Positions 16,801-39,413 of a DNA stretch of 64,000 nt are shown here, in pieces; positions within the stretch are counted from its first letter, which is position 1, and each line of letters starts with the position of its first letter. The translations under genes and the position numbers were made by a program. The DNA is from Cryobacterium roopkundense (GTDB taxonomy: Bacteria > Actinomycetota > Actinomycetes > Actinomycetales > Microbacteriaceae), in NCBI RefSeq assembly GCF_014200405.1, contig NZ_JACHBQ010000001.1, forward strand, positions 1,612,001 through 1,676,000, given 5' to 3'. The notes under the pieces were generated by a model. The model was not told the origin of the DNA. It saw only the letters and a program-made list of their open reading frames with translations, and did no database searches.

Positions 16801-17313
16801 GTTCCCGGCAACGTCGTTGCCGCCGTTCAAGCGGGAACGCTGAATACTTCAGCTCAAACAATGCTTCAAGCGGGCCTAGCATCGCGAGAGGTTGCTCGAA
16901 TTGTCGTGGCCGATTTCGCACCCACATTCAGTTCGGTTCAACAAATGACTCTGTGGCTGAAGTCCGAATCCGTCGCACTTTACTCAGAAGAACCGACCAG
17001 TCCTACCTCCAAGTTGCATGACATTTGGTTGTCATTCGTTGAGCGCAGCAGTTTCGAAGTCTCGTCGGCTTGGTCTCGGCGGGAGTATGACTTGGAAGTT
17101 GATTGGTTCGAAGAGTCTCCAACAATTGGTTGGCCCCTCATCGTGCGCCACAATTCACTCGATGTTAGATCGGCCGACTTCACTCTTCTCGGGCATCTCA
17201 GAGAATCGATCAAAGTGGCGCCAGGCCGCCTTCAGGCATACGCAACCGGTCCCACGACCATGCGAGTCGTTCAAATCGGCCCCGATGATGCTCCCTCGAC
17301 TGAGTTCTTCTGA
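13879..17313 (+). CDS. hamB: Hachiman-like HamB DExH helicase
   Basis: A 1,144-residue superfamily 2 helicase. Residues 1-285 are a helical N-terminal region without recognised motifs. Motifs seen: SLPTSAGKTR (Walker A, 311-320), VTPLKALSAQ (Ia), ATPEKLDF, VLDEGHMIG (DEGH, 414-417), LSAVLPSG (III), HHGSLPAAFRSQIEELL (IV region), SPTLAQGVNL (V) and NVVGRAGRA (VI). The C-terminal 400 residues are helical. Ski2-like helicases with this layout pair with DUF1837 nucleases in Hachiman, where the helicase senses damaged or foreign DNA and controls the nuclease. Translationally coupled to hamA. It converges on hsdR with only 29 bases between them and no evident terminator. Confidence 0.78.
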   Translation: MADATEIDEQIRKRTAPAFRGSLLARGQARSLVWRDGLVPKGGPNFSDHLSYDLLTYGYGLLGEGLRLIDLEGASPTTSLALERAAESLESVLRNGDGQLPERDLNVLVAAAAYHVGGFAARAYSLLDQQNFGEAHPASGQALVFLMLRRLDHLEHLVSQTLPRMDVDVEPPLPSTDAELHEMAYEVLDDLFLQAMSTALTALEHGSQGLLQESLKMLEESAALAGAGGYVEQWWIHRLARFVLDGLWRASLHLRIPLADDHTTAPWRWDHLRLLFITSLLNRERAEIELWPSQLEAAEQVFGSDDSLVVSLPTSAGKTRIAELCILKALAEGRRVAFVTPLKALSAQTERSLSKTFAPLGVSVSSLYGGIGMTSVDEDLAMSVEILVATPEKLDFAIRSDPNLLDNVGLIVLDEGHMIGTGEREIRYEAQVQRLLHRSDAKTRRIVCLSAVLPSGEALIDFCGWMSGDAERGLVTNEWTPTRRRFGSVTWNGTVGRLELELGGETAFVPALVKLKRAPITVRRSRTFPQDQGDLTLSVAWAMADEGHSVLIYSPQKNWVVSLAKKVVELIGLGLLTDFSPQLTDKYRNAVTAGEELFGAQHPVVQCLRRGVAVHHGSLPAAFRSQIEELLREGAIRMTISSPTLAQGVNLSATSLVFHSLSAMSGSDFRNVVGRAGRAYADVEGLVILPVFVEDKRKQRRQLALWADLKSGSREMDVRSGLVRLVAELLSALQMRTGAVSLAEQTEYLVNQPDPFSWAKGGESSVDIVQQLDALDIAILSLLGDEGVPEAALLATLDEVLQSSLWSRTLSRLTQGDQDLRTLLLRKRATYIWESTSANQRRALYLAGIGLSSSEEFRAVLPKLALALEAAEVAVAEGNEDLAPLAITAFAATAFQCQPFVPKALPTRWREMLTQWIRGEALTVAEDEDPLEAMDFVEGAVGYRLVWALEAVRVMSPLFDKPDLESDSEAFSLLVPGNVVAAVQAGTLNTSAQTMLQAGLASREVARIVVADFAPTFSSVQQMTLWLKSESVALYSEEPTSPTSKLHDIWLSFVERSSFEVSSAWSRREYDLEVDWFEESPTIGWPLIVRHNSLDVRSADFTLLGHLRESIKVAPGRLQAYATGPTTMRVVQIGPDDAPSTEFF

Positions 17314-20300: not shown

Positions 20301-20420
20301 CTCCGGGAACAGCGCTCGTTCCTTGTCGTATCCGGTGCCCGTGGGAGAATACAGCCACCCCTGGGATTCCAGGTAGAGAGCGATTTCTTCTTCGAATGGT
20401 TTCTCGTTGTGCTGCCCCAT
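17343..20420 (-). CDS. hsdR: Type I restriction enzyme R subunit
   Basis: A 1,025-residue HsdR. N-terminal nuclease domain: DLVLFVNGLPVATLELK, with Glu-x-Lys as PD-(D/E)xK residues near 195. Translocase motor: IQHSAGSGKTNSIAW (Walker A), FAIIADEAHSSQ (DEAH box), FAYTATPKAKTLELFG, and late motifs YQTGFDQPLLVAMYVDKKL and QTLSRLNRM. The C-terminal helical part binds the methylase. It cuts unmodified DNA far from the recognition site after ATP-driven translocation. Last of the leftward hsdM-hsdS-hsdR operon; its ATG shares one base with the hsdS stop (TAATG). All key motifs are present, so it is probably functional. Confidence 0.95.
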   Translation of the reverse strand: MGQHNEKPFEEEIALYLESQGWLYSPTGTGYDKERALFPEDVFGWLADTQPEALAKVVKPGDAASVQEKARNAILDRLAKSLDASFDSVAGVQGGTLSVLRRGFKYTPASFRMAQFRPADGLNPTTTADYGKMRLRVMRQVFYSTANQKSIDLVLFVNGLPVATLELKTDFTQSVQDAISQYRTDRNPKGEPLLSFGHRALVHFAVSNSEVFMTTHLQGPDTFFLPFNKGNDGRAGNPVNPDGSETAYLWERVLQKDAWLGILGQFMHLQVEKSIDPVTGEVEKKETLLFPRFQQWESVTKLIEAAREEGPGHRYLIQHSAGSGKTNSIAWTAHQLSTLHRADGSKVFNSVIVVTDRTVLDTQLQDAIKQIDSKTGVVIGIDSKTGGSKSSRLAEALTQGAQIIVVTIQTFPFAMAELAKLEGSLAGRSFAIIADEAHSSQTGTTSNKVKSVLNADELADLADGGEVDMEALLAVDMESRANAKNISYFAYTATPKAKTLELFGRSVDGGLPKPFHLYTMQQAIEEGFILDVLRNYTPYKVAFKLAHSGQEYHSDGPLVEKTQAVKELMQWVRLHDFNITQKVALIIEHYRENVAWRLNGKAKAMVVTGSRREVVRYKLAFDAYLKRTGHTDVRALVAFSGEVLDEDLSPDKFTEASMNTGLKGRSLPEAFKTDSFQVMLVANKYQTGFDQPLLVAMYVDKKLSGVTAVQTLSRLNRMAKGKDTTYVLDFVNDPEVIRESFEPYFKDARLSAVSDPNIVHDIKSKLDALHLYEEHEVDAAASVEVFKKGNNALAAAIAPGKDRFNKRYDAATEAGDLEEVDRLELFRSDLTSFINAYDFLSQIINFEDVAIEKHSIYYRTLARVISEKTRRSAIDLTGVSMIGYGIKKHDQQNISLTGDEELDPLKAPGSKTPVDPVLARLLEAVNQLNQLFDGDGLTAADMMGFYTYVKGKVAENEKVTTQIKVNSEQQFLASPDLGSTVTNAIVSSGTNFTAMVAEALTSDDKLAKIIDIIGRALYRDERNAA

Positions 20421-21769
20421 TAGAGCCCCCTCACATCAATCTTCCCCATGACCGCCGCACTTATCAGTGCCTGACGGCGCTCCTTCAATACCTCGACAAC
20501 CTCGCGTGCCTTACCAATGAGCGCGTCGATTCTGGAGGTCTCCAGGTCCAAAAAGATACCGATTTCCTTCTGAATCGATCGCGCCGGAACTGAGATCTGA
20601 ATTTCCTTGAAATCCTCATAAGCGAGGTTCTGCATGCTGCTGCTGGTACCCACACGAAGAGCACTTACCTGATCTTTATAGGTTCGTGTTTGGAACCACC
20701 AGTAGGTGAAAACTGACTCGGAGCTGAATCCAAGTTGCCAAAGCTTGTCTGAGAGAAAAAGGTTGTCGTGTTCTTCTCTAACGAGCGCGGCAGACCCCAC
20801 GAGTTCGGGGGAATTGGCGCGGTTGATGATTATCTTGCTTTTGCGCACAGGACAGGTGACGCGGGCTATGTCTTCGTCCAAAACAACTTTGTTATTCGAA
20901 GCATCGAAGATTCCCCTTGAGGCACTGCCTGTCTTCAAAACCCCGACCTCACCAGACTCCGCCGGCGTATTGATGGCATTCACGCTGGTACCAGATTCGC
21001 GATCAGCTACGAGGTGCTTCATCCGGGAGAGTAACCACCCCGTCGGAACCTTTCCGAGCCACGGAATCCCTGATTCGGTGAGTTCTAAAGCGGGGTCGAG
21101 GCCACGGGTGACGGCTTGGGTGATCACGGCTTGACGGCGCTCGGTCAGCGTCTCGGCTAACTGCTCCTGCTTGGTGATGAGCGCGTCAATCTGCCCGGTC
21201 TCCCGACCCAAATACTCCGCAATTTGCCTTTGCTCGGCGAGTGGCGGAATAGGGAGGGGCAGTGAAGCGAGTGCTGACTGCCCTAGCCCGACACGCGTCA
21301 GCCCATTCGATCGCGTAGCCAAGACGCTCTTCACGAAAGTTGAATCAAAGAGCCACTTCAAGAACAAACCGTCCGAATCTGGGTTCGTCCGAAGGATGGC
21401 TAAATGATACCCGTATATGACACCAGGCAAGTCTTGATCCGCGAATGCTGCAATGCCGATGTCATCGGCTGATTCCGAATCCTTGGTGATGGCTACGTCC
21501 CCTGCACGAACAGTAAAGCGCGCTATTTCTTCTGCACTCGCGGTTGCTTCCATGAAAGAGAGGGCGCTTGAGATTCGGTCGTTGTAATACACGTCCACGT
21601 AATTGCAGAGTCGGACCGCCAATTGGCCGTCATAGCTCTTCTTATCAACAGTGCTGGCGAGGCTCGTCGCAATATCTTTCAGGCGGCCTCGATTCCAGTG
21701 CGACGGAAGTTGCCCCATCCATGTAGCACTCTGGTCTAGCGCCGCTGACAAGCGATGGTCGTCATTCAC
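20420..21769 (-). CDS. hsdS: Type I restriction-modification specificity subunit S
   Basis: A 449-residue HsdS with the usual two target-recognition domains, each followed by a long conserved helix. The first half ends in PIPPLAEQRQIAEYLGRETGQIDALITKQ and the second in a parallel copy, SIQKEIGIFLDLETSRIDALIGKA with KERRQALISAAVMGKI. The second recognition domain (about 235-385, ESGIPWLGKVPTGWLLSRMKH onwards) is shaped as expected. Codon use in the recognition domains is more AT-rich than in hsdR and hsdM, as is common for exchanged specificity domains. The start overlaps the hsdM stop by four bases. The target sequence cannot be read from the protein. Confidence 0.94.
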   Translation of the reverse strand: MNDDHRLSAALDQSATWMGQLPSHWNRGRLKDIATSLASTVDKKSYDGQLAVRLCNYVDVYYNDRISSALSFMEATASAEEIARFTVRAGDVAITKDSESADDIGIAAFADQDLPGVIYGYHLAILRTNPDSDGLFLKWLFDSTFVKSVLATRSNGLTRVGLGQSALASLPLPIPPLAEQRQIAEYLGRETGQIDALITKQEQLAETLTERRQAVITQAVTRGLDPALELTESGIPWLGKVPTGWLLSRMKHLVADRESGTSVNAINTPAESGEVGVLKTGSASRGIFDASNNKVVLDEDIARVTCPVRKSKIIINRANSPELVGSAALVREEHDNLFLSDKLWQLGFSSESVFTYWWFQTRTYKDQVSALRVGTSSSMQNLAYEDFKEIQISVPARSIQKEIGIFLDLETSRIDALIGKAREVVEVLKERRQALISAAVMGKIDVRGL

Positions 21770-23745
21770 GAGCGTTCAACTTCCCCAAGCAGAACGGTGA
21801 TTTCTTGCACCAACTTGTTGAGGTCGGCGTCGATCTCATCGAGCGAGCGCGGCGGCAGGTATTTGTAGAAGTGCCGGGTGAAGGGGATCTCATACCCGAC
21901 CTTGTCCTTGGTGCGGTCGACCCAGAAGTGCTCAACATGCGGGGCGATCTCGCGCTGGATGTAAGTGTCGACGTTCTCGGTGAGCGGCACGTTCTCTGTG
22001 TCCCGAAGGCTAGTGTCGGCAACCGGCTTGCCTTTGGTGTCCGTTACAACCGGCGCGGTCTCGTCTCGCTCGGCTAGCCCGGCGATGAGGGCCTTCAGCT
22101 GCGGCGCAGCGACGGTGACGCCAGCGGAGTCGAGTGCCTTCTTGATGTGAGTGGTGAACGCGGCGGCATCGGTTGTTCTCTCGGAGACGGTGCTGAGACC
22201 CAGGAGCGCGGTCTCGATCTGCTCTGCGAGGGTGGCGAGATTCTTGGCCGCCAAAGCGAGCTGCAGGCGCTCCGGGGTGACAGCCCAGCTGAACTGTTGG
22301 GGTCGTTCGACGGTGATAGTGGTGTAGCCGAAGTCGGCGGTGGAGAAGATTTTCGAAGCGTCAGCATCCGTTGTTTCGGCGCCGTTTCTGTTGTTGCCGT
22401 AGAGCTGGACGATGTGTTCGATTTGTTCGGGGCTGATGAGACGGCGTTTGGAGCCCAGGCTCTTGCGCATTTTGATCCACTGGTCGGTGGCGTCGATGAG
22501 CTGCACTTTGCCCTTGCGGCTGGTGGGCTTGTCGTTGTCTAGGATCCAGATGTAGGTGGCGATGCCGGTGTTGTAGAACAGGTCGGTGGGCATGGCGATG
22601 ATGGCGTCGAGGAGGTCGTTCTCGATGACGTACTTGCGGATGTTGCTTTCGCCGGAGCCAGCGCCGCCGGTGAAGAGCGGGCTGCCGTTCAAGACGATGC
22701 CGACGCGGCCGCCGCCCTGAGCCTTTGGGCGCATCTTCTTCACGAGGTGCATGAGGAAGAGCAGAGATCCGTCGGAGACGCGGGGCAGGCCGGGTCCGAA
22801 GCGGCCGTCGTAACCGCGCTGGTCGTATTCGTTATGAACGAACGACTGCTGTTTCTTCCACTCGACACCGAAAGGCGGATTCGAGAGGCCATAGTCGAAC
22901 GTTTTTCCGAGATGCCCGTCGTTGGTGAGGGTGTCGCCCCAAATGATGTTCTCGATGGCCTGGCCCTTGATGACCATGTCAGCCTTGGCGATGGCGAAGG
23001 ATTCGGCGTTGAGTTCCTGGCCCACGAGGGTGAGGGAGGCCTGGGGGAAGTGTTCGCGCACGTAGTCATCGGCGACACTGAGCATGCCTCCGGTGCCGGC
23101 GGTGGGGTCGTAGACCGTGCGCACGGCGCCGGGAACGGAGAGGGACTTCTCGGGGTTTTCATCTGCGTGCTCGGTGAAGAGCAGGCTGACCATGAGGCGT
23201 ACGACTTCGCGCGGGGTGAAGTGTTCTCCGGCGGTTTCGTTGGAGGCTTCTGCGAAGCGTCGGATGAGCTCTTCGAAGATGAGGCCCATCTCGGTGTTGC
23301 TGACCCGGTCAGGGTGCAGGTCGACGGCCGCGAACTTCTGGATGAGCAGGTAGAGCAGGTCGTTCTCGTCGAGGCGGGCGATCTGGGCCGGAAAGTCGTA
23401 GCGGTCGAAGATGTCACGCACGTTGGCAGAGAAACCATCAAGGTAATTGAGCAGGTTCGCACGCACGTTGGCGGGATCACCGCTGAGCTTCTCGACCGTG
23501 TACAGGCTGGTGTTGTAGAAGTCGTGCTTAGAGATGGCCGGGAGGAGCTTCTCGACTGGGATGCTGCCGTCTTTGTACTTGGCGTATTCGGCAAGCACGG
23601 CGTCTTTGGTCGGCGCCAGCACCGCGTCGAGGCGGCTCAAGATGGTGAATGGCAGCACGATCTTGCCGTAATCGGACTGCTTGTAGGTGCCGCGAAGCAG
23701 ATTCGCGATCGACCAGATGAATGCCCCGTTGTTATTTTCAGCCAT
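21766..23745 (-). CDS. hsdM: Type I restriction-modification methylase subunit M
   Basis: A 659-residue HsdM, N6-adenine methyltransferase. Helical N-terminal domain (about 1-160, NLLRGTYKQSDYGKIVLPFTI), then AdoMet motif I VYDPTAGTGGML, motif IV GLSNPPFGVEW, and the EHFTPREVVRLMVSLLF segment conserved in HsdM. It is longer than the E. coli enzyme (about 530) owing to a C-terminal extension with a coiled region. It methylates the host target and forms the M2S core needed for restriction. First gene of the operon; ATG 23745 lacks a strong ribosome site, and the roughly 200 bases upstream are the likely promoter. Confidence 0.94.
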   Translation of the reverse strand: MAENNNGAFIWSIANLLRGTYKQSDYGKIVLPFTILSRLDAVLAPTKDAVLAEYAKYKDGSIPVEKLLPAISKHDFYNTSLYTVEKLSGDPANVRANLLNYLDGFSANVRDIFDRYDFPAQIARLDENDLLYLLIQKFAAVDLHPDRVSNTEMGLIFEELIRRFAEASNETAGEHFTPREVVRLMVSLLFTEHADENPEKSLSVPGAVRTVYDPTAGTGGMLSVADDYVREHFPQASLTLVGQELNAESFAIAKADMVIKGQAIENIIWGDTLTNDGHLGKTFDYGLSNPPFGVEWKKQQSFVHNEYDQRGYDGRFGPGLPRVSDGSLLFLMHLVKKMRPKAQGGGRVGIVLNGSPLFTGGAGSGESNIRKYVIENDLLDAIIAMPTDLFYNTGIATYIWILDNDKPTSRKGKVQLIDATDQWIKMRKSLGSKRRLISPEQIEHIVQLYGNNRNGAETTDADASKIFSTADFGYTTITVERPQQFSWAVTPERLQLALAAKNLATLAEQIETALLGLSTVSERTTDAAAFTTHIKKALDSAGVTVAAPQLKALIAGLAERDETAPVVTDTKGKPVADTSLRDTENVPLTENVDTYIQREIAPHVEHFWVDRTKDKVGYEIPFTRHFYKYLPPRSLDEIDADLNKLVQEITVLLGEVERS

Positions 23746-25968: not shown

Positions 25969-26781
25969 TCATTCGCTGTTCTCGGTGATCGCCGATTGTG
26001 CGGCGGCCAGGTCGACGATTGCTTTGTCGGCGGCGTAGGTCGCGATCAGCGCGGCGACGGCGAGGTTGTTGACCGCCCGTGGATACCCCCTCGAGGCGAG
26101 GTGGATCGCTTGGATGGCGTCGTCGGAGAACAGCGGGTCTGACCGGCCAGCGAATTTGAGGTGTTGCCGGATGTAATCGGTTGTGTCGGCGGCATTCATC
26201 CCGGTGATTGTGTAGCATGTGGAAATGCGTTGATCCAATGCCGCGAGCACGGCAAGTTTCAGGCGGCGCCGCAGGGTGGGTTGGCCGATGAGGAGCATCG
26301 CGAAGTGCGACCCGGTATCCATTGCCACGTTCGTCAACATGCGTAACGATTCCAGGTCGGTGTTGGTGAGCAGGTGCGCTTCGTCGATGACGACGACGGG
26401 CAGGCGGGCTCGTTCGTCGAGTTCCCCGGCGAGTAGCGCCGCGGTTTGCGAGGACAGCACTCCGGAGAAAAACGCCGGGGTCCCGCCAAGCGCCGTGACG
26501 ATCTGAGTGTGGATTCCACGCATCGTGATCGTCGGGTCGGGGATGTAGATGATCTGGTGCCGGGAGGGTTCCAACTGGGCCAGGGCCGCGCGGACGGCGA
26601 CGGTTTTCCCGGCGCCGACTTCACCGCTGATCACGCCGAGCTGGCGTTGGCTGACGCACCAATCGATGCGGGCGATCGCTTCCCGGTGCGAGGGGTGCGG
26701 GTGCAAGGCCTGCGGCGGAATATCGCGGGCGAAGGGCATACGCGTGAAGCCGTAGTGCGATTGCAGGGTGTCGATACTCAT
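25969..26781 (-). CDS. TnsC/ExeA-like transposition AAA ATPase
   Basis: A 270-residue ATPase starting MSIDTLQSHYGFTRMPFARD, the ExeA/TnsC-type opening. Walker A GEVGAGKT (about 53-60), Walker B VVVIDEAHLL (about 129-138), sensor I LLIGQPTLRRRL and an arginine-rich DQRISTCYTITGM segment are all present. In Tn7/Mu-like elements such ATPases select target DNA and activate the transposase. The ATG overlaps the transposase stop by four bases, so both are made together. Confidence 0.92.
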   Translation of the reverse strand: MSIDTLQSHYGFTRMPFARDIPPQALHPHPSHREAIARIDWCVSQRQLGVISGEVGAGKTVAVRAALAQLEPSRHQIIYIPDPTITMRGIHTQIVTALGGTPAFFSGVLSSQTAALLAGELDERARLPVVVIDEAHLLTNTDLESLRMLTNVAMDTGSHFAMLLIGQPTLRRRLKLAVLAALDQRISTCYTITGMNAADTTDYIRQHLKFAGRSDPLFSDDAIQAIHLASRGYPRAVNNLAVAALIATYAADKAIVDLAAAQSAITENSE

Positions 26782-28304
26782 CGGGCGGCCTCCGAAACTG
26801 TCGGCACGAAGACGACCTTCCTCGCCGCCGGGGTGGATGCTTTCACGAAACTAATCGGTTCCCCAGCCATCGTGCCCTTGTGCCGGGTCTCCACCAGGCG
26901 CAGGTAGTCAATGCCGGAGGCCGCATTCCGGGCACCGGTGTCGGCCTCGTCAGCCGCCGCGGTCGCGGCCTTCTTGTGAACGTGCCGGCGAATTTCACTC
27001 AGTACGGCGATGCCGGCCGGGACGCCGTTCCCGGCCGAGACGGTGATCAGCCCGGCGAGGTCGAAGGGGTCATAAACCAGCTCCACTCGTTTGCCGACGA
27101 GGAGCTGATCCACTTGATACGTGTTGGACTGCAACGACACCGTCGCGGACTTCGTCACCGTGCGGATCGCCGACCACTGGAACGCCTCCGCAATGACGGT
27201 TTTCTCCTTCCGCACCGGGCGTCGTCCCGCCCAGCCGGCATCCCAGCGCTGCACCGGTGTTTGCCCTGTCGTCGAATGCGTGGCCTGGTGATAGACCATC
27301 TCCACCCACGACGTGAACAGAGCATTCATCTCTTCCAGCGTGGTGACCATGCTGCCCACCCCGGCATCTACTACGCCGGTCGTGGTATCGACGGTGGTGA
27401 TCTCGGTGAGGAACTGCGAGTTGACGGTGTTGAAGAACCGCTCGATCTTTCCGCGGCCCTGCGGCCGATACGGCTTCGAATGCGTCAACCGGATTCCGAG
27501 GCGCGCGCAGGTCCGCGAGAGCGACTCATCAACAAAAGCGCTTCCGTTATCGACGTAAATCGTCCCGGGAATTCCGCGCGCTTCCAACGCCGGGCGGAGG
27601 GCCGCGGTGAGGCGGACGGAGTCTTCGGCGTAAGCCCACCGGCCCGCCGTCACCATCCTGGAGTGGTCGTCGAGGAACGCGAACAGATACGTCTTCCGCC
27701 CATTGATCCGCGGCCCGTGCAACCCGTCACCGACCCATATTTCATTCGGGTAGTCCGCTTCAAACCGGCCGAAAACCTCCCGCACCCCGGTCGAAAGTTC
27801 CAGCGTGCGGAAGTGCCGCAGCAGCGTCGACTCCGACGGAGCATCACCGAGCGTGTCGATCATGATGCGCCGCACCTGCGCCGAGGTGCGGGCGGGCCGC
27901 TCCCTCTTCAACGTCGCCGCCAACGACAAGATCTGCGCCGGCGTCACCGCGCCCTGCGCCCGGCCTCGGGGTCTCAACGCGTCGAACCCTCCGCGCCGCC
28001 ACTGCCTGATCCACCGATCAAGAGTGTCCTTGCTGACCGTCACCGTCCCGCCGAATGGACCCGGATGCACCAGCCCTGCCAGCGCTCGAACCATCGGGCC
28101 GCGCTGCCGCGTCGTCACACTGTCATCGGCGGCGTCCCGGATCAGGTGGTAACGAAACAGCGCGATCTTCTCCGTCCGTCCGCGGCGCACCGCCGAAGCA
28201 GACGGCGGTCCCGCCGGCGGCGGCGGGACGAGCAAAGCATCGGCTGGCTCCGCTGGGGAAGCCCGCGGCGAAACGGGGAGCAATGCCGGGGAAAGTGCGG
28301 GCAT
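26778..28304 (-). CDS. DDE transposase (rve fold, TnsB/Mu-like)
   Basis: A 508-residue transposase. I chose ATG 28304 (MPALSPALLPVSPRA) because AGAGGA lies 6 bases upstream; the frame is open further left without a ribosome site. N-terminal helix-turn-helix domains (TVSKDTLDRWIRQWRRGG, TPAQILSLAATLKRE, RTSAQVRRIMID) precede the catalytic rve core: NEIWVGDGLHG (first Asp), GTIYVDNGSAF (second Asp) and QGRGKIERFFNT (Glu). The C-terminal Mu-type beta domain (SNTYQVDQLLVGKRVELVYDP) follows. The complete D, D, E set suggests an active enzyme. Confidence 0.93.
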   Translation of the reverse strand: MPALSPALLPVSPRASPAEPADALLVPPPPAGPPSASAVRRGRTEKIALFRYHLIRDAADDSVTTRQRGPMVRALAGLVHPGPFGGTVTVSKDTLDRWIRQWRRGGFDALRPRGRAQGAVTPAQILSLAATLKRERPARTSAQVRRIMIDTLGDAPSESTLLRHFRTLELSTGVREVFGRFEADYPNEIWVGDGLHGPRINGRKTYLFAFLDDHSRMVTAGRWAYAEDSVRLTAALRPALEARGIPGTIYVDNGSAFVDESLSRTCARLGIRLTHSKPYRPQGRGKIERFFNTVNSQFLTEITTVDTTTGVVDAGVGSMVTTLEEMNALFTSWVEMVYHQATHSTTGQTPVQRWDAGWAGRRPVRKEKTVIAEAFQWSAIRTVTKSATVSLQSNTYQVDQLLVGKRVELVYDPFDLAGLITVSAGNGVPAGIAVLSEIRRHVHKKAATAAADEADTGARNAASGIDYLRLVETRHKGTMAGEPISFVKASTPAARKVVFVPTVSEAAR

Positions 28305-28335
28305 GAAGAGTCCTCTCAAACAGTGAACACACCCA

Positions 28336-29013
28336 TCACAGGGATATGGCAGGCGCTCCTGCCACTGTTGCCGCCCACCACGGACGGCATAAGGGCCAGT
28401 TGGTGTTGGGGACCGCCGCCCACCAGCTCCGGCAAAAAAACAGCCCGTTGGTCTGAGCGATCGCCACCTGAACCCACGCCACCGTGACGGTCGCGACGAA
28501 CCGGCGAGCCAGCCCCCGTGCATACGCCATCAACGCCGACAACGCCTCACCCGAAACAGTCCCAGCAGGCCTTGGCCAGACGACCACCGCATCGGGAGCA
28601 TCCCGCACCAACAACCCCGTGAACCGTTCACCCATCGCCGCGGCCGAAGCGGCGAAAGCACGCAACCAACCACGAACCGTCGAAACCGGTCTTCCGCAGT
28701 CCGCAGCGATCCTCCGATGACCCCAACCCAAAGCAGTCTTCGCCTCGATCGCCGCCGCAATCACCTCGGCGGTATCTGCTCGCCGCGCGGCCAACCGCAC
28801 CTCCAGGAGCACATGCGTGCCCTGGCAGGCCGTGCACCGAGACCGACGCGGGCGAAGGCCCCGCGGCACCCAATCTGTGCCGAGGCCCTCACGGATCACA
28901 CGCGCCCGAGCCCACCCCCACGGGCGCAAACGGCCACCACAATCGGGGCAGGCAACCCGCCCGACCCGAAGGTCCAACTCGACAACAACAGAATCATGAC
29001 TTACCGTGAGCAT
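28336..29013 (-). CDS. DUF6431-like zinc-ribbon/HTH transposon accessory protein
   Basis: A 225-residue protein: N-terminal zinc ribbon CPDCGGRLRPWGWARAR ... RCTACQGTHVLL (two CxxC pairs, about residues 21-24 and 60-63), then helix-turn-helix-like ALGWGHRRIAADCGRPVSTVRGWLRAF (about 92-118). This resembles DUF6431 proteins that accompany transposases in actinobacteria. First gene of the transposon operon, 31 bases before the transposase start. It may help bind ends or act as a regulator. The family name is from memory. Confidence 0.75.
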   Translation of the reverse strand: MLTVSHDSVVVELDLRVGRVACPDCGGRLRPWGWARARVIREGLGTDWVPRGLRPRRSRCTACQGTHVLLEVRLAARRADTAEVIAAAIEAKTALGWGHRRIAADCGRPVSTVRGWLRAFAASAAAMGERFTGLLVRDAPDAVVVWPRPAGTVSGEALSALMAYARGLARRFVATVTVAWVQVAIAQTNGLFFCRSWWAAVPNTNWPLCRPWWAATVAGAPAISL

Positions 29014-30045: not shown

Positions 30046-30175
30046 AACGACCTGAATTGTCTTGGCAGGGAAAACATTCGCCCCGTTCCGCGCGGTTTCC
30101 TGTGACGCAGAGGCGTGCACCGAAATCTCTTGTGGGCCGCGGCGCACCTTCGTGACGAATGCGGAGGTGCGCGCG

Positions 30176-33100
30176 GTGACGGTGTCGATGCGGGTGATGA
30201 GCGCCGGCGACGGGTACAAGTACCTGTTGCGCACGGTCGCCGTGGCCGACGGGAACCGCTTGCCATCGACGCCGCTGACCCGCTACTACACCGAGCAGGG
30301 CACGCCGCCCGGCCGATGGATGGGCAGTGGCCTTCCGCGGCTCGGTGGGGGCTTCATTGTCGAAGGCGACGAGGTCACGGAGGAGCATCTTCAGCTCCTC
30401 ATCGGATTGGGCCGCGACCCGGTTACAGGTGAGGCGCTGGGGCGGGCGTACCCGGTCTACCGGACTGCCGCGGACCGCGCCGCCGTGGCCCGAGATGAGG
30501 ACGGTGCCGGCCCGGACCCCAGCGAGGGAGCATCCGCTGCCGCACCACCCTCCGAGGAGGAGCCAGCCCGAAGCCGGCAGCGCGCCGTCGCCGGCTACGA
30601 CTTCACGTTCTCGATTCCGAAGTCGGCGAGTGTGCTCTGGGGTGTTGCCGACGCAGCCAAGCAGGCGCGCATCGCCGAGGCTCACCACTTTGCGGTTGCC
30701 GAGGTGATTGCATACATGGAGCGCGAGGTGGCGGCAACGCGTATCGGCGCGACGGCGCAGGGCGGCGCCGTCGCGCAGGTCGATGTGACCGGCCTGATCG
30801 CGACGGCGTTCGATCACTTCGACAGTCGGGCTGGCGATCCTCATCTGCACACGCACGTCGTGATCAGCAACAAGGTGCAGACCGTGCTTGACGGCAAGTG
30901 GCGCTCCCTCGATGGCCGGCCGATGCACGATGCCGTGGTGGCGCTCTCCGAACTGCACGAGACCCTGTTCGCCGACGCGCTCACGCGATCCCTCGGCGTG
31001 CACTGGGAAAAGCGAGAGCGGGGGCGGGATCGACACCCTGCCTGGGCGATAAGCGTCATTCCGGAAGCGCTCGTTGTGGAATTCTCGTCGCGGTCCCGGC
31101 ACATCGATGTGGAGACCGACCGGTTGATCGAGGCATACGTCGGGAGCCACGGGCGTCGCCCGAACCCGGTGACCATCACCAAGTTGCGGGCACAGGCCAC
31201 GCTCTCCACTCGGCCCGTGAAGCAGGTGCACTCGTTGGCAGAGCTCACTGCGGCGTGGAGAGAACGGGCCAGGCTCGTGCTCGGGCGCGACGTGTCGGCG
31301 TTGGTGAGTGCGGCATCCGCTCACCCGCCTGCGCCCGCGCTGCGCGCACAGGACGTGCCGCGCGATGCGATCGAGGCGCTGGCATTGAGCGTGATGACGG
31401 CCGTCGGTGAGAAGCGTGCAACCTGGCGGCACTGGAACCTCACGGCCGAGACAGCGCGCCAAACGATGCCGTACCGCTTCGCATCCGCTTCGGATCGAGA
31501 GGCTGTCGTTGGGCTCATAACGGATGCTGCCGAGCGCGCGTCCCTGCGCATCACGCCACCCGAGCTCGCCTCGAGCCCTGCCACCTTTCAACGCGACGAC
31601 GGCACGTCGGTCTTCAGGGCGAAGCACTCTGTCGTGTTCACCTCGACCGAGTTACTGGAGGCTGAGTCTCGGCTGCTCGAGCGTGCCGCCGATCAGACCG
31701 CTCCACGAGTCGCGGCGACCACGCTGCGTTCGGCCGCGCGCACGAAGCTGCCCGGCGGGGGAGTGCTCGCCGATGACCAGCTCGCGGCACTCCTGTCGAT
31801 CGTCGGCTCCGGCCGGGTCATCGATGTTCTCGTGGGACCGGCCGGTGCGGGCAAGACGACGGCCATGAGCGTGCTTCGGCACGCCTGGGAGAAGGCGCAC
31901 GGTGCGGGCTCCGTCGCCGGGCTCGCACCCTCCGCCGCCGCCGCGACCGTGCTGGCGACGGACCTCGGAATCACCACCGAGAACCTGGCGAAATGGTGGC
32001 AGACCCATCTTGACCACCGAACGACCTTCCGGGCCGGTCAGCTCGTGATCATCGACGAGGCATCGTTGGCGGGCACGCTGCCCCTGGATCGGATCACCGC
32101 GTTGGCCGCGACTGCCGGCGCGAAAGTTCTGCTTGTGGGCGACTACGCCCAGCTCCAGTCGGTGGAAGCGGGTGGCGCGTTTTCGATGCTGGTGCACGAG
32201 CGAGCGGATGCGCCCGAACTCATCGACGTGCACCGCTTCGTGCACGAGTGGGAGAAGACGGCATGCCTCGGGCTGCGCCAGGGCAACTCTGAGGTGATCG
32301 GCCTCTACGTCGTGCACGACCGCCTGCGGGACGGCACAACCGAAGCGATGGCGGATGCCGCCTACGAGGCCTGGCACGCAGACACCCGAGCTGGCAAGGA
32401 GACAGTGCTGATCAGCGACTCGAACGAGGCGGTGGCAGCGCTGAACGTGCGGGCCCGCACAGAACTGATCCTCGAGGGCCAGGTCGATGCGCTGCGCGAA
32501 GTCGCCCTGCACGACGGAACCTGCGCCGCTGTCGGTGACACCGTCATCACCCGACGCAACGACCGCCGGCTCTATGCGTCGCGGACATGGGTGCGCAACG
32601 GTGACCGGTGGGCCGTGATCGACGTGCACCGGAACGGTTCGGTCGAAGTGCGACGGCACGGTCGGCGGTGGGGGAGCACGGTGCTGCTTCCCGCCGAGTA
32701 CGTGCGCGACCACGTTGAACTGGGCTACGCGGTCACATCGCACCGGGCGCAGGGAATCACGACCGACACCGCGCACGTGGTCGTCGCGCCGAGCATGCCG
32801 CGCGAGAACCTCTACGTCGCGATGACGCGGGGTCGCGAGGCGAACACCGCCTACGTCGCCGTCGACCGGCCCGATGTTGCCCACGTTGGGCCGCGCCCTG
32901 GTGTCGATGGCGACGTGACGGCGCGCAGCATCCTCTTCGGCATTCTGCAGCACGTCGGCGCTGAGCTGTCCGCGCACGAGACGATTGCGGCGGAGCAGGA
33001 TGCGTGGGGATCTGTGGCGCAACTCGCGGCGGAGTACGAGACACTTGCAGCGGCCGCGCAGCACGACAGGTGGGTGTCGGTGGTGCGCGACTGTGGCCTC

Positions 33101-33736
33101 TCGGCCGGTCAAGCTGACGCTGTAATCGCATCGGATGCCTTCGGGCCGTTCACCGCGGAGCTCCGGCGTGCGGAGGCCCTCAACTTTGATGTCGCAAGCA
33201 TGCTCTCACGTGTGGTGGCGGTTCGCGGGTTCGAGGATGCCCAAGACATCGCGGCGGTGCTGCGAGCCAGATTGGCGTCGGTTGTTTCTCAGGACAGTGG
33301 AGCCGGCCGCTCGCGTCGTGCTCCGCGCCTCGTTGCAGGGCTGATCCCACGGGCGATCGGACCGATGGATTTGTCCATGCAGACCGCCCTCGGCGAACGT
33401 GCCGACTTGATCGAATCGCGGGCGAGCGCCGTCCTGAATGATGCGGTGCTCGCGGGGGAGACTTGGACTCGCGCGCTCGGTGTTGTTCCGCGAGGGGTGA
33501 CATCCGCGGTGTGGCGACAGCACGCGTGCACGGTCGCGGCGTACCGGGACCGTTACGGCATCGTGGGCGGCCGACCGCTCGGTGCAGCACCGGAAACGAC
33601 GGCGCAGAAACTTGACTCAGCTCGCGCCCATGCCGCGCTCCAGACTGCTCAGCATTTGGCGGCAGATTCTCGCACGGACGCGGCACCCGCACTGACTCCG
33701 GTGACCCGGGTGGCGGAGTACCTGACCCGCGGGTGA
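30176..33736 (+). CDS. traA: MobF-family relaxase-helicase
   Basis: A 1,186-residue conjugative relaxase. I chose GTG 30176 (VTVSMRVMSAGDGYKYLL): GGAGG lies exactly 8 bases upstream and relaxases of this type begin with this motif; the open frame back to 30062 is not needed. Tyrosines in DGYKYLL and TRYYTEQG are candidates for the nicking residues; the metal-binding triad is HLHTH (about 223-227). A RecD/TraI-type helicase follows, with Walker A GPAGAGKTT (about 554-562), IIDEASLAG (Walker B) and YAVTSHRAQGIT (motif VI region). It nicks at oriT and unwinds the transferred strand. No coupling protein gene is adjacent. Confidence 0.95.
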   Translation: MTVSMRVMSAGDGYKYLLRTVAVADGNRLPSTPLTRYYTEQGTPPGRWMGSGLPRLGGGFIVEGDEVTEEHLQLLIGLGRDPVTGEALGRAYPVYRTAADRAAVARDEDGAGPDPSEGASAAAPPSEEEPARSRQRAVAGYDFTFSIPKSASVLWGVADAAKQARIAEAHHFAVAEVIAYMEREVAATRIGATAQGGAVAQVDVTGLIATAFDHFDSRAGDPHLHTHVVISNKVQTVLDGKWRSLDGRPMHDAVVALSELHETLFADALTRSLGVHWEKRERGRDRHPAWAISVIPEALVVEFSSRSRHIDVETDRLIEAYVGSHGRRPNPVTITKLRAQATLSTRPVKQVHSLAELTAAWRERARLVLGRDVSALVSAASAHPPAPALRAQDVPRDAIEALALSVMTAVGEKRATWRHWNLTAETARQTMPYRFASASDREAVVGLITDAAERASLRITPPELASSPATFQRDDGTSVFRAKHSVVFTSTELLEAESRLLERAADQTAPRVAATTLRSAARTKLPGGGVLADDQLAALLSIVGSGRVIDVLVGPAGAGKTTAMSVLRHAWEKAHGAGSVAGLAPSAAAATVLATDLGITTENLAKWWQTHLDHRTTFRAGQLVIIDEASLAGTLPLDRITALAATAGAKVLLVGDYAQLQSVEAGGAFSMLVHERADAPELIDVHRFVHEWEKTACLGLRQGNSEVIGLYVVHDRLRDGTTEAMADAAYEAWHADTRAGKETVLISDSNEAVAALNVRARTELILEGQVDALREVALHDGTCAAVGDTVITRRNDRRLYASRTWVRNGDRWAVIDVHRNGSVEVRRHGRRWGSTVLLPAEYVRDHVELGYAVTSHRAQGITTDTAHVVVAPSMPRENLYVAMTRGREANTAYVAVDRPDVAHVGPRPGVDGDVTARSILFGILQHVGAELSAHETIAAEQDAWGSVAQLAAEYETLAAAAQHDRWVSVVRDCGLSAGQADAVIASDAFGPFTAELRRAEALNFDVASMLSRVVAVRGFEDAQDIAAVLRARLASVVSQDSGAGRSRRAPRLVAGLIPRAIGPMDLSMQTALGERADLIESRASAVLNDAVLAGETWTRALGVVPRGVTSAVWRQHACTVAAYRDRYGIVGGRPLGAAPETTAQKLDSARAHAALQTAQHLAADSRTDAAPALTPVTRVAEYLTRG

Positions 33737-34098
33737 CCCTGGTTGAGCGCACGGTGTCGAGAAGGTCCGCCCCAGCTTGGGACGTGACCGTCGAGCGGCG
33801 CCACGAAGCCAATCTTCATCGCGGTCAGTTCTGACCATGCATGGGTGATCACGCCGTTGCACCATCTTGCAACGGCCAAGCTGCCAGTCGACGGGGGTAT
33901 GGCGGTTGTCGCGCCTAGCGTGCCTAAGGTTTTACTCACTCGGTGGCGACACCCTATCTGCGCACTAGCATAGGTATCCCCCTTACGATTTCAGTGAGAT
34001 GCCCATATCTAAGTGGCGCATGACCGTCTGCAATGGAGCAATCGCTATCTCACTGAAATCGTAAAGGGGATAGGTATTTGGTTCAAAGGGGGAACAAC
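33737..34098. other. Gap downstream of relaxase, with large inverted repeat
   Basis: 362 bases with no convincing gene. The right half holds the 98-bp inverted-repeat structure listed separately and the ribosome site (AAAGGGGG) of the next gene. The left half shows nothing I can name; GC drops compared with the relaxase gene. Confidence 0.5.
33975..34072. repeat. 26-bp inverted repeat with 46-bp spacer; candidate oriT or operator
   Basis: TATCCCCCTTACGATTTCAG (start of arm, 33975-34000) is answered by a 26-base arm at 34047-34072, with 25 of 26 bases pairing. The spacer is 46 bases. Such a long near-perfect repeat can be a relaxase-recognised oriT, a recombination or IS-like end pair, or a structured leader of the downstream module. 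Its place between the relaxase stop and gene 34099 fits oriT or promoter control. No direct proof. Confidence 0.75.
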
Positions 34099-35346
34099 AT
34101 GGGACGTCGACGAGGATTTCTTGCCGAGATTCAGCACCAGTCGCGACTTGCCGAGCAACGGCAGCGCGCCGCAGTTCGCGAGCAGGATGCCGCATACAGG
34201 CGCGCTGTCGCCGCACAGAACGCCGCTCAGCGGGCGAAGCTGGCGGCGTCGAGAGCCTCTGATGCCGATCGGAAGCGTATGGAGAAGGAGGCAGCCGCGG
34301 CGCACGTGGCCGCGATGCAGGCAGAAGTCGACCAACTCAATGCCACCCTTTTCGCCGGCTACGACGAGTTGGACAGTTTGCTGGCCGCCACTCTAGAAGT
34401 TGATGACTATGTCGATTTGGAAAGCCTGCGTCAGAGGGCTGAACATCCTCCGTTCTCAAAACCCAACCTTCAGACGGCAATTCCCGTTCCAACCCCGCTC
34501 ACCGTCCCAGTCAAGCCCACCCGTCGAACTGTCGAAAAGCCCACGGGCCTCTTCGGCCGCAAGAAGAAGCTCGCAGAGGCCGATGCTCAGGCGGATGCAG
34601 AAATGGGCGTCGCTCTGCGGGCTTGGGAGATGGCAGGGCAAGCTCTCCCCGCGCGTCAGGCACAGCAGAGCTCATCGTATGCAGCCGCTGAGAGGGCCCG
34701 GGTGGAGGAACTCGCGACTGAACAGGCGCGCTACGAGGCGGATTGCGCGAGCAGAGAGGCTCTTGTTGCCAAGAACAACTTCTCGCTCGACGAACTAATC
34801 GCAAACCTCGGGTATGGGGATGCTGCGGCTATTCACGAGTATGTCGGAATTGTCATCGCAAACTCCGTATACCCGGACAGCTTCGACATCGACCACGAGT
34901 CGGAGTTCGAGGCGTCATCCGCCGAGCTTCGCCTACGCGTTCTTGTTCCGGGGCCAGACCAGATTCCGACTGTAAAGGCTTACAGGTATGTCAAGGCAAG
35001 CGACGAGATCACCTCTGCCGAGTTGTCACAGAAGGATGCTAAGGATCGGTACGCCGGAATCGTGCATCAGGTAGCCCTGCGCAGCCTCCACGAAGTATTC
35101 GAAGCCGACCGTCGAAAACTGATCCAAGCCATTTCACTTGAGGTCGGGACGCAGACGGTAAGTCCCGCTACGGGAAACGAAACGTACGTCCCTTTCGTGG
35201 CGGTCGCAGTTTCGCGTGAGGCATTCGCTCAGATTGAGCTGTCTGCAGTTGTGCCTGCCGCGACTCTTGAACACCTCGGGGCGGCGCTTTCCAAGAACCC
35301 CCTTGGGCTAATTCCATCCAACGGTAGCGGCGTACGTCGGTCGTGA
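34099..35346 (+). CDS. Coiled-coil protein resembling Mrr-like enzyme N-terminal half, nuclease absent
   Basis: A 415-residue protein from ATG 34099 (MGRRRGFLAEIQHQSRLAEQ), with GGGGG 7 bases upstream. Residues about 5-85 are a charged coiled coil rich in Ala, Arg and Glu; a Pro/Thr linker follows. The C-terminal half (LDELIANLGYGDAAAIHEYV, KAYRYVKASDEI, ALRSLHEVFEADRRKLI, TLEHLGAALSKNPLGLIP) strongly recalls the region that precedes the Mrr nuclease domain in large 'restriction system' proteins of Streptomyces. Here the protein ends where that nuclease domain would begin. The neighbouring GIY-YIG gene overlaps its stop, suggesting the nuclease is supplied separately. The homology statement is from memory and needs a search. 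Confidence 0.75.
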   Translation: MGRRRGFLAEIQHQSRLAEQRQRAAVREQDAAYRRAVAAQNAAQRAKLAASRASDADRKRMEKEAAAAHVAAMQAEVDQLNATLFAGYDELDSLLAATLEVDDYVDLESLRQRAEHPPFSKPNLQTAIPVPTPLTVPVKPTRRTVEKPTGLFGRKKKLAEADAQADAEMGVALRAWEMAGQALPARQAQQSSSYAAAERARVEELATEQARYEADCASREALVAKNNFSLDELIANLGYGDAAAIHEYVGIVIANSVYPDSFDIDHESEFEASSAELRLRVLVPGPDQIPTVKAYRYVKASDEITSAELSQKDAKDRYAGIVHQVALRSLHEVFEADRRKLIQAISLEVGTQTVSPATGNETYVPFVAVAVSREAFAQIELSAVVPAATLEHLGAALSKNPLGLIPSNGSGVRRS

Positions 35347-36725
35347 TGGGAACTCCCGCAGGTCCTGTCTTTAACCCACCGCCCGGCTGGCCGAAACCGC
35401 CGGCCGGGTGGCGTCCGCCAGCGAGCTGGAGTCCTGACCCGTCGTGGCCCGCAGCGCCAGAAGGTTGGCAGCTTTGGCTCAATGCTGACGCCGGGGAGTC
35501 CTTAAGTGTGACCGAACCCGATTTGATCGAATCCGCCCAGCCCATTGGGGCGGCCACAGAGCCAGGCGCTGCGACTTTTCGTCAGAACGCATCAGCTCGC
35601 CTAACGTACCTTGAGGCCGAGAACGCGGAACTGCGAGCACGTCTGGCGAGCCTTAGCTCAGCAGGTGATGAGTACATTGAGCTTGACGACGCGCGTGTGC
35701 TGCAGAACGTCGGAATCTACCGATATCACCATCCGTTGGAGAATGCAGCGCTGCATCGCGAACGTCTCGACTCGATCGAGACCCGAATTGCTGAAGTAGT
35801 GAAGTCCGGCTTGGCCATAGTGAAGTCGAATCTCTTCACATTTGACAATTCCTTGGCCAAGGGGCGGCGGATGACCGATGACCTGTCACGTCTCATGCTT
35901 CGCGCATACAACGCTGAAGCTGATAACAGCATTCGCTCGTTGAGGGTCGGCAACGTGCTGACCGCCAAACGGCGGTTGGAAGCGTCTCGGACGGCAATCG
36001 CAAAGATCGGCTCATTGATGGAAATGCGCATCAGTGACGACTATCACAATCTCCGCGTCGAAGAGATTGAGCTCACCGCTGATTGGCTGATGAAGCGGCA
36101 GGAGGAGAAAGAAGCCGAACGGGAGGAACGCGCACGTCTGAGGGAAGAGCGCCGCGTTGAAAAGGAACTGGCTGAAGAGCGAGCGGAACTCGACAAAGAG
36201 CGCCAACATCTTATTAATGCGTTGAATGCGATCCGTGCCGGTGGCGAGGAGGACCCCGACTTGGTTCTGCGCCTCGCCGACCTCGACGCCGCGATTGCGG
36301 ACAATGACTTCCGGGCCGCGAACATTCGGGCGGGATACGTCTACGTCATTTCGAATCGTGGAGCATTTGGGGAGAATGTCGTTAAAATCGGCCTCACCCG
36401 ACGTCTCGAGCCAACCGAGAGGGTTGCTGAGCTGAGTGGGGCCTCCGTTCCTTTCCGTTTCGACATCCACACGTTGTTTTTCTCCGAGGATGCAGTGACG
36501 CTTGAGAACGAGTTGCATAAACACTTTGCGGCCCGCGCCATGAATCAAGCGAATTCACGTAAGGAGTTCTTCTTTGCGTCCCCGGCCGAGGTGCGCGAGG
36601 TCTTGATGAAGAAAGTCGGTAACCTTCTCGAATTCCGAGAACATGCAGAGGCAACCGAATTCATGCAGTCTGTGGGGCTCTGGCCCGAGAGTGAAAGCCG
36701 TTTTCAGGCCGTCAACCTACTGTGA
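35346..36725 (+). CDS. DUF4041 / T5orf172 GIY-YIG nuclease-like protein
   Basis: A 459-residue protein. ATG 35346 overlaps the upstream stop (TGATG); a GTG one codon earlier is also possible. The N-terminus (4-45) is a Pro/Trp repeat, PPPGWPKPPAGWRPPASW, a motif typical of actinobacterial adaptor or membrane-proximal proteins. A short coiled coil precedes DUF4041 (about 115-235: YRYHHPLENAALHRERLDSI, GVLTAKR-like LRVGNVLTAKRRLEASR), then a long charged helix (240-300), then a T5orf172/GIY-YIG domain (about 320-430: GYVYVISNRGAFGENVVKIG, RLEPTERVAELSGASVPF, LENELHKHFAA, RKEFFFASPAEV). Such proteins are predicted DNA nucleases in phages and mobile elements. Coupled to the Mrr-like protein, it probably forms a two-part defence or DNA-processing unit. 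Confidence 0.85.
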   Translation: MGTPAGPVFNPPPGWPKPPAGWRPPASWSPDPSWPAAPEGWQLWLNADAGESLSVTEPDLIESAQPIGAATEPGAATFRQNASARLTYLEAENAELRARLASLSSAGDEYIELDDARVLQNVGIYRYHHPLENAALHRERLDSIETRIAEVVKSGLAIVKSNLFTFDNSLAKGRRMTDDLSRLMLRAYNAEADNSIRSLRVGNVLTAKRRLEASRTAIAKIGSLMEMRISDDYHNLRVEEIELTADWLMKRQEEKEAEREERARLREERRVEKELAEERAELDKERQHLINALNAIRAGGEEDPDLVLRLADLDAAIADNDFRAANIRAGYVYVISNRGAFGENVVKIGLTRRLEPTERVAELSGASVPFRFDIHTLFFSEDAVTLENELHKHFAARAMNQANSRKEFFFASPAEVREVLMKKVGNLLEFREHAEATEFMQSVGLWPESESRFQAVNLL

Positions 36726-38148: not shown

Positions 38149-38310
38149 ATGAACGTGCCATCCGCTGACAGCACAGGGCCTCGCCAGGAGTTGGTGCAGC
38201 ATCCGCCTGCTGACGCTCCTGACGAACCGGGCCGGGAGAGCCGCACTGACCGTGTGGCTGAGAGTAGGCGTGAGTGGGTGGCCGCGAACCGCGAGCTGTG
38301 CGGGAGATGA
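38149..38310 (+). CDS. Short N-terminal frame of the Arg-rich repeat protein
   Basis: A 53-residue frame, MNVPSADSTGPRQELVQHPP to SRREWVAANRELCGR, whose stop overlaps an ATG (38307) of the next frame as ATGA. Its end continues, one base shifted, the same repeat pattern as the following protein (REWVAANREL / VREMNRRWRAEH). Either this is a coupled leader gene, or one base was lost near 38296-38302 and the two frames were once one protein of about 421 residues. Confidence 0.5.
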   Translation: MNVPSADSTGPRQELVQHPPADAPDEPGRESRTDRVAESRREWVAANRELCGR

Positions 38311-39413
38311 ATCGGCGCTGGCGCGCGGAGCACCTGGAGCGTTCGCGGCAACAGAACCGCGATTCGATGCGTCGGGCCGCGGAGCGCAGGCGTCGCGAGG
38401 AAGCGGCGCGTGCTCGGGGGAGGGAGCGTGCGAAACAGTGGCGGGAGGATCACCCTGATCGTAGGCGCGAGTACCAACAGAGGTGGGTCGAGGAAAACCG
38501 CGACAAGATCCGGGAGTACTACAACCGCTACTACGAGAAGCACCGCGAAGAGGTGAACGCTCGCGCGGCAGCCCGGCGCGACGCCGACCCCGAACGCACG
38601 AGGCAGGTCACTAAACAGTGGGCCGACCGGAACAAGGAGCGCCGGGCCGACTTGCAGCGTAGGCGGCGAAGCGACCTAGAGACCTACCAGTCGGAGTTGG
38701 AGGCCAACGCCGCAGCTCGACGGCTCAAGCGCTCACTCGCGCGGGCAGGCCTCCCTCCGAAGTCGCTCCACTCGGCATCCGCTGCCGAGCGCCGCGCCAA
38801 CGAACGTGACGCCGACACCTATTTCAATGATCCGGCATTACCCGAGCATCTGCGTCAGTTCACGGTGTTCGCGGAGTCCCTCACCGAGCATATGCTCACG
38901 CACTGCACCCGCATGCGTGAGTTCGCCGAGGCCTATGTGGAAACCAGAGAACGGATGAGGCTCCCGCCCGTTCCGGTGGAGAATATCGTCTACGCCCGTG
39001 CTGTCGAGATCGTCACCGACCGGATGCGCCGAGTCGACCTCCTGACCAGCCGCGACGTCGCCGCTGCGGTGCGGAGCACACAGGCCGAGGTCCGTCTGCA
39101 GGAGCGGCGGCGGCAGTTTGAGGCTTTCCTGAATGCCGTCGTGACCAATGCGAACCGCAATAGAGAGCGTTATCGCTACGACGCGGAAATTGAGAATCGA
39201 GCGAGGGCGAACCGTGGATTGCCGAGTGCACCTATCGAGTCACTGATCGTGCACCTCGCCCTTCAGTACGCTATTGAGCGTGTGCCCGCGAATATGCTCA
39301 CGGCTGACGACGCTCGAAATGCTGCCCGCGTCGCGAAGCTACACATCTCAGCCTTCTCGGAAGGACCGCAGCCAGCCGTCAACGATCGCGATCACCGAAG
39401 GTCATTCGGTTAG
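38307..39413 (+). CDS. Arg/Glu-rich repeat protein, uncharacterised
   Basis: From ATG 38307, about 368 residues. The first 130 are a charged helix built of irregular 14-16-residue repeats around W/Y-R-x-E-H/N (NRRWRAEHLERSR, KQWREDHPDRRREY, QRWVEENRDKIREYYN, NRYYEKHREEVN, KQWADRNKERRAD), a pattern seen in mobile-element and phage proteins thought to bind nucleic acid. The C-terminal 220 residues are a separate helical domain (TEHMLTHCTRMREFAEAYVE, ANMLTADDARNAARVAKLHI). Function unknown. The last 50 residues recur as a decayed copy at 40410-40565. An extended GTG start at 38274 is possible. Confidence 0.7.
   Translation: MNRRWRAEHLERSRQQNRDSMRRAAERRRREEAARARGRERAKQWREDHPDRRREYQQRWVEENRDKIREYYNRYYEKHREEVNARAAARRDADPERTRQVTKQWADRNKERRADLQRRRRSDLETYQSELEANAAARRLKRSLARAGLPPKSLHSASAAERRANERDADTYFNDPALPEHLRQFTVFAESLTEHMLTHCTRMREFAEAYVETRERMRLPPVPVENIVYARAVEIVTDRMRRVDLLTSRDVAAAVRSTQAEVRLQERRRQFEAFLNAVVTNANRNRERYRYDAEIENRARANRGLPSAPIESLIVHLALQYAIERVPANMLTADDARNAARVAKLHISAFSEGPQPAVNDRDHRRSFG

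Follow-up and report, generated by a model that had tools for sequence, protein, structure and literature searches.

We report that two overlapping genes of Cryobacterium roopkundense probably encode the two subunits of a single anti-invader nuclease of the SNIPE (PD-lambda-1) type; judging from sequence comparisons, the first subunit would target or license the cutting done by the second. The genes lie on the forward strand of a 64,000-nucleotide stretch of contig NZ_JACHBQ010000001.1 (assembly GCF_014200405.1, positions 1,612,001 to 1,676,000), hereafter the window, whose coordinates are used throughout; loci and genomes are cited by our own L and G numbers. Gene 1 (34099..35346) encodes the partner subunit, a nuclease-free protein of 415 amino acids (aa) made of a probable coiled coil and a conserved C-terminal domain. 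Gene 2 (35343..36725), which overlaps it, encodes a SNIPE/PD-lambda-1 homologue of 460 aa. Both open reading frames (ORFs) are intact: gene 1 runs from the ATG at 34099 to the TGA at 35344-35346, and gene 2 from a GTG at 35343, with an alternative ATG at 35346, to 36725. A first-pass annotation had placed a TGATG overlap between two genes here, and the junction does read GTGATG, an overlap of four bases when counted from the GTG and of one base from the ATG.

Firstly, we established what gene 2 is. The first-pass annotation had read in it an N-terminus rich in proline and tryptophan (Pro/Trp), a DUF4041 and a T5orf172/GIY-YIG nuclease domain, and all three are present: the Pro/Trp element at residues 8-45 (35364..35477; FNPPPGWPxPPxGWxPPxxWxPDPxWPxxPxGWxLW), DUF4041 at residues 183-238 (35889..36056; E = 4.4e-19) and the nuclease domain at residues 331-421 (36333..36605; T5orf172/MUG113, E = 4.2e-16 and 4.1e-13). 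The GIY-YIG identity of the partner stands, but the protein is of an already known kind, a homologue of SNIPE/PD-lambda-1 (PMC13190303), and it matches both PADLOC PD-Lambda-1 models (E = 1.5e-94 and 2e-89). The DUF4041 protein of SNIPE was reported by Vassallo et al. (2022, PMC9519451), and PD-lambda-1 was characterised as SNIPE by Saxton et al. (2026, PMC13190303). According to the accessible parts of the latter paper, SNIPE is one membrane-anchored protein that works as a single gene in E. coli; it is reported to cut the DNA of phages as they inject it, and needs both DUF4041 and the GIY-YIG glutamate; DUF4041 helps it to bind DNA and is probably in contact with tape measure proteins. Without its transmembrane segment SNIPE reportedly cuts host DNA and is toxic, and among 474 homologues 59% are predicted to have one transmembrane segment, 7% two and 34% none (PMC13190303). 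In those same parts we found no mention of a partner gene. Gene 2 shares with SNIPE the order DUF4041 then GIY-YIG but, set against what is accessible on SNIPE, differs in its lack of a transmembrane-like segment, its Pro/Trp N-terminal element and its apparently obligate second subunit. Of 79 aligned rows, 78 keep residues Y332, Y334, K348, I349, G350, R353, R354, E388, H392, N404, R406 and E408; in the remaining row (L078) the frame fails to align over the nuclease residues and leaves a gap. The active-site residues are common to a Salmonella SNIPE homologue. The putative catalytic glutamate E388 (codon 36504..36506; E in 78 of the 79 rows, gap in L078) aligns with the glutamate of the Salmonella protein and is a putative counterpart of E414 of SNIPE. 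By hydropathy, the only basis for our transmembrane calls on gene 1, gene 2 and their relatives, transmembrane-like stretches are absent from both proteins (Kyte-Doolittle 19-window maxima of 1.29 for gene 1 and 1.10 for gene 2); a value of 1.6 is exceeded by none of 78 gene 2 relatives and by three of 78 gene 1 relatives (highest 1.72), and the maximum for the Salmonella SNIPE homologue is 3.15. This Salmonella homologue is encoded on a plasmid (L158, CP148766.1), separated by one gene from the gene of a tape measure protein, the kind of protein that SNIPE reportedly recognises (PMC13190303).

Secondly, we found that the two genes stay together in other genomes. When 84,980 species genomes were scanned with the gene 1 alignment, using two peptide patterns both taken from gene 1, 133 relatives emerged; the best 80 were kept, and each of them is followed immediately, on its own strand, by a gene 2 homologue, so that chance is no explanation for the pair. 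The co-occurrence search proposed in the first-pass annotation thus bore out its pairing. The distance between the genes is -4 in 52 of the 80 and -1 in nine, under a rule (the start codon nearest to the gene 1 stop) that leans towards overlap, and no start codon was found in three. From record titles, isolates with the pair belong to Actinomycetota and Pseudomonadota, with one Planctomycete; metagenome bins, some of them on short contigs, add Nitrospirota, Verrucomicrobiota, Gemmatimonadota and others. Within the order of the window, a gene 1 relative occurs in eight of 396 sampled genomes: gene 2 adjoins it in five (L001-L004 and L006), one locus (L005) is cut by the contig end and two (L007, L008) are fusions to an Mrr nuclease. 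Our genome collections overlap, so some genomes were perhaps counted in several searches, and each search scored few candidates per genome at first look (mostly 4), so misses are possible.

Thirdly, we asked what gene 1 is related to. The first-pass annotation had proposed kinship with Mrr-type proteins, ending where the nuclease should start; homology to such proteins was found, and gene 1 does stop at the start of their nuclease. Residues of about 1-230 (34099..34788) are charged and probably helical or coiled-coil, an assignment with approximate boundaries read from the sequence and alignment, not from a coiled-coil program. Residues 231-406 (34789..35316) form, by alignment, a C-terminal domain common to Mrr-fused proteins, in which Y258, P259, D302, R328, E332, E335, D337 and G359 are invariant over 69 aligned sequences. 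In gene 1 no Pfam domain scores above cut-off, and Mrr_cat gives no match. At E up to 1, PADLOC yields a single match, to mREase_IV, a model of type IV enzymes (E = 3.2e-32), of which gene 1 covers only positions 12-379 of 544, meaning that it lacks the C-terminal nuclease part. In Mrr-type IV proteins (PADLOC mREase_IV PDLC03663; Mrr_cat PF04471) the pre-nuclease part aligns with gene 1, whereas gene 1 has no Mrr nuclease and the GIY-YIG nuclease comes from the next gene. The gene 1 profile matches the Mrr-fused protein of L128 over positions 17-414 (E = 1.1e-97); fused proteins often match most of the length of gene 1, others mainly its C-terminal domain (259-414 in L007 and L008), and Mrr_cat is present in all five fused relatives scanned (E = 4.8e-29 to 4.6e-32). 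For solved structures, phmmer returned no relative of either gene at E up to 1, and a profile search only weak matches (six and three), mostly coiled-coil-type by name. A phage-borne origin of gene 1 was rejected after no match was found in 50,697 phage records; viral contigs gave no match to the single gene 1 sequence and eight loci to its alignment, namely one pair and seven Mrr fusions.

The two nucleases exclude each other around gene 1: its relatives either stand alone beside a GIY-YIG gene or are fused to Mrr with no GIY-YIG gene, with three exceptions considered below. In the class of the window, the gene 1 profile found relatives in 55 of 394 genomes, and 29 new loci were retrieved. 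Gene 2 adjoins gene 1 at all the standalone ones (L119-L126, of which L122 is the same locus as L003), while the 21 others (L127-L147) all continue into an Mrr nuclease, with gene 2 absent from the 1.5 kb on either side of the gene 1 match. From the weaker places in this class-wide search 20 were sampled, not exhaustively: 17 of them are fused to Mrr, gene 2 is present at none, and three (L191, L192, L195) have neither nuclease. Altogether 47 of 47 Mrr-fused loci lack a nearby gene 2 (L007 and L008, then sets of 21, 7 and 17).

Phylogenies put the pairs into one main clade, apart from a further pairing that is independent of it. In the tree of the gene 1 C-terminal domain (49 rows: 21 of the 69 of alignment A5, four of the eight L119-L126, 23 Mrr-fused and L006), a branch (100/100) sets off the 25 main paired rows, whereas L006, the paired protein of genome G253, groups with L127, which is Mrr-fused (97/94). 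In the tree of the nuclease half (48 rows), a single clade (97/89) unites 22 paired rows, and L006 again stands apart, on a long branch, among lone homologues that bear TerD (98/86). As in the window, the G253 pair (L006/L148) consists of adjoining gene 1 and gene 2 homologues; in contrast to the window pair, it has the opposite gene order, a TerD domain on both partners and a gene 1 that nests among Mrr-fused proteins. This TerD-type pair was seen only in G253 among 221 genomes of its family, a search that gave three more pairs (L162-L164). An integrase gene adjoins the G253 pair (L148), and SIR2- and HerA-like genes lie a few kb off. The first-pass annotation had held that the Mrr nuclease was replaced by another fold: the exchange itself is supported by the exclusive distribution, the second pairing and the one-chain fusions described next, but, both trees being unrooted, the main exchange may have run in either direction.

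Single-chain versions of the pair exist. When gene 1 and gene 2 were joined into one query, five single-chain proteins (P0241-P0245) appeared among the best 120 of 488 matches, with lengths of 762-893 aa that cover 91-100% of the query. By our own reading, P0242-P0245 carry an unrelated linker where the Pro/Trp element would sit; P0241 has a single member, on a short contig, and could stem from an assembly error. Over 76 loci the distances of gene 1 and gene 2 are correlated (r = 0.71, with 0.18 as the maximum of 999 permutations), which demonstrates that they are inherited together but not that they touch. Among homologues with 60-70% nuclease identity, paired members have a DUF4041 identity of 0.62 and lone ones of 0.48, and in the same bin the stretch before DUF4041 gives 0.55 against 0.36 (400 paired and 107 lone sequence pairs, not independent of each other). 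This higher conservation in paired members is expected if the partner binds there.

The mechanism that we favour makes gene 2 the cutter, a SNIPE-type GIY-YIG nuclease without membrane anchor whose DUF4041 would hold DNA; in E. coli SNIPE this domain would also hold the phage tape measure protein. Gene 1 would bind gene 2 in a physical complex, recognise the invader, either its DNA or its entry or injection machinery, and bring gene 2 there or license its cutting, and the relatives of gene 1 would do the same job for their covalently attached Mrr nuclease. As gene 1 is associated with two unrelated nuclease folds, its task is probably not tied to one nuclease. A wider proposal, to be taken as tentative, is that gene 1 is a nuclease-agnostic targeting subunit, swapped during evolution between serving Mrr in cis and a SNIPE-type GIY-YIG nuclease in trans, that replaces the SNIPE anchor in discriminating invading DNA from the chromosome and so marks a soluble two-component branch of SNIPE. 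Alternatively, gene 1 may be chiefly an anchor or inhibitor that takes the place of SNIPE's transmembrane segment and spares the host chromosome, rather than a sensor. We consider this rather unlikely. It would account for two proteins without a transmembrane-like segment when anchorless SNIPE is reportedly toxic (PMC13190303), and for a gene 1 that comes first and overlaps gene 2, hence is made before the nuclease; however, lone SNIPE homologues mostly have neither. In the order of the window these have the same nuclease half as gene 2, and 23 of the 24 assessed are likewise without a hydrophobic N-terminal segment (below 1.6; L117 reaches 2.31), yet gene 1 was not found beside any of 25 (1.5 kb on each side or to the contig end) and their DUF4041 is less conserved. 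Broken copies of gene 1 beside gene 2 (L010, L062, L125) are also unexpected for an obligate antidote, a weak argument given that sequencing error or lost coupling could have produced them.

Several observations weigh against the favoured reading of gene 1 and gene 2 as two subunits of one nuclease. The SNIPE-type nuclease family occurs in 40 of the 396 genomes of the order and gene 1 in only five of these; the 35 others (25 checked at the locus, 10 by not appearing among gene 1 matches) indicate that the nuclease family is generally independent of gene 1. To the broken gene 1 copies must be added a gene 2 that is cut short beside an open gene 1 (L124), and the standalone gene 1 relatives with neither nuclease beside them, whose neighbours were judged by reading translations, not by family search. 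Two of these look decayed from their sequence, L191 because it is apparently flanked by transposase remains and L195 because it ends where the nuclease would start; the third (L192, in G673) is a distant relative between glutamine synthetase-like and kinase-like genes, possibly a further partner type or a relic. The 35 genomes without gene 1, like the single-gene action of SNIPE in E. coli (PMC13190303), would suit a gene 2 that acts alone, with gene 1 an independent defence or accessory gene travelling along. Such an arrangement is very improbable in view of the 80/80 adjacency in the same order, mostly with a four-base overlap and across phyla, and in view of the one-chain fusions and the independent second pairing.

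The Pro/Trp element of gene 2 is strongly conserved. A loose pattern for it is matched by 70 of 78 gene 2 relatives, and the element has a mean pairwise identity of 69%, against 24% for the linker behind it. It was not seen at five loci that keep gene 1 (L063, L074, L079, L082, L086), and is therefore unlikely to be gene 1's sole dock. Among the lone homologues of the order, 16 of 25 have DUF2510, Pro/Trp or TerD patterns in this N-terminal slot, and a family search confirmed such families for L096 and L106. A DNA-pattern search of the C. roopkundense genome for Pro/Trp elements found one place and missed gene 2 itself, a pattern too strict to be informative.

The pairing was not found described in the literature searched, with bioRxiv preprints and most subscription journals outside reach; the nuclease is of a known kind, and the constant partner and the exchange between nucleases appear to be new. 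The pair suggests a cross-phylum branch of SNIPE with a second protein at every one of the 80 loci retrieved by the gene 1 scan, a partner that also occurs with another nuclease family. SNIPE reportedly spares its host through its seat in the membrane, although one third of its homologues are predicted to be anchorless (PMC13190303, accessible parts), and the pair is a direct test case for how SNIPE nucleases without an anchor locate invaders. Detection is affected as well: where a tool calls PD-Lambda-1 in a genome of this kind, it may be showing half of a system. PD-Lambda-1 is listed, in the accessible part of one survey, for 95 of 114 Clavibacter genomes (PMC11856565), and the only Clavibacter locus that we retrieved (L035) carries the pair.

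The long inverted repeat that the first-pass annotation saw before the pair is real, with arms of 31 nucleotides (nt) that are 90% complementary (33970-34000 and 34047-34077), and does not belong to the module. It is part of a palindromic element of roughly 100 bp (33970-34077), resembling a miniature inverted-repeat transposable element (MITE) or a repetitive extragenic palindrome (REP), of which the 4.5 Mb genome holds ten further near-full copies (94-100% identical) and fragments. The element folds strongly as an RNA hairpin (z = -4.9) and had no Rfam match near gathering scores. In 78 of the 80 relatives a search of the 250 bases ahead of gene 1 did not find it, and the two others have too little upstream sequence; six relatives have other short inverted repeats there, with arms of 14-17 nt and none longer than 17. 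A role as operator or part of the module was rejected, since the element is dispersed and missing upstream of the 78 relatives tested.

The first-pass annotation had also placed the pair between a relaxase and other defence genes, and the window confirms both. A gene for a TrwC-type relaxase (30062-33736) lies about 360 bases ahead of the pair, and a Kocuria rosea plasmid that carries the pair is typed as mobilizable, with MOBF and MOBP relaxases. Both would fit a pair that processes DNA for a neighbouring relaxase-bearing mobile element instead of serving in defence, an explanation to which we give hardly any credence: neighbours of the pair elsewhere are varied, some defence-like and some housekeeping-like, and no relaxase is among the 25 commonest neighbour families listed per library. 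These neighbours were taken as the 143 nearest ORFs of the 80 relatives, called crudely, of which 113 were scanned (30, mostly short, were omitted). Their PADLOC matches, the first 25 of 168 families, include MkoA, type I and IV restriction, IetAS, QatD, AbiEii and PD-T4-6, one or two each, a tally without a control set from which we claim no defence-island enrichment; housekeeping families are also among them. No family among the 25 commonest per library matches more than 4 of the 113, so the loci have no third gene in common. Downstream of the pair in the window, a 379-aa protein rich in arginine and glutamate (38274-39413) has no significant family match. Upstream lie the Hachiman pair HamA-HamB (12879-17313; HamB model E = 0, HamA E = 8.3e-71), the R, S and M subunit genes of a type I restriction-modification system (17343-23745, reverse strand), and a Mu/TnsB-like transposase with an AAA ATPase (25969-28523, reverse strand), next to an ORF with a weak DUF6431/HTH match.

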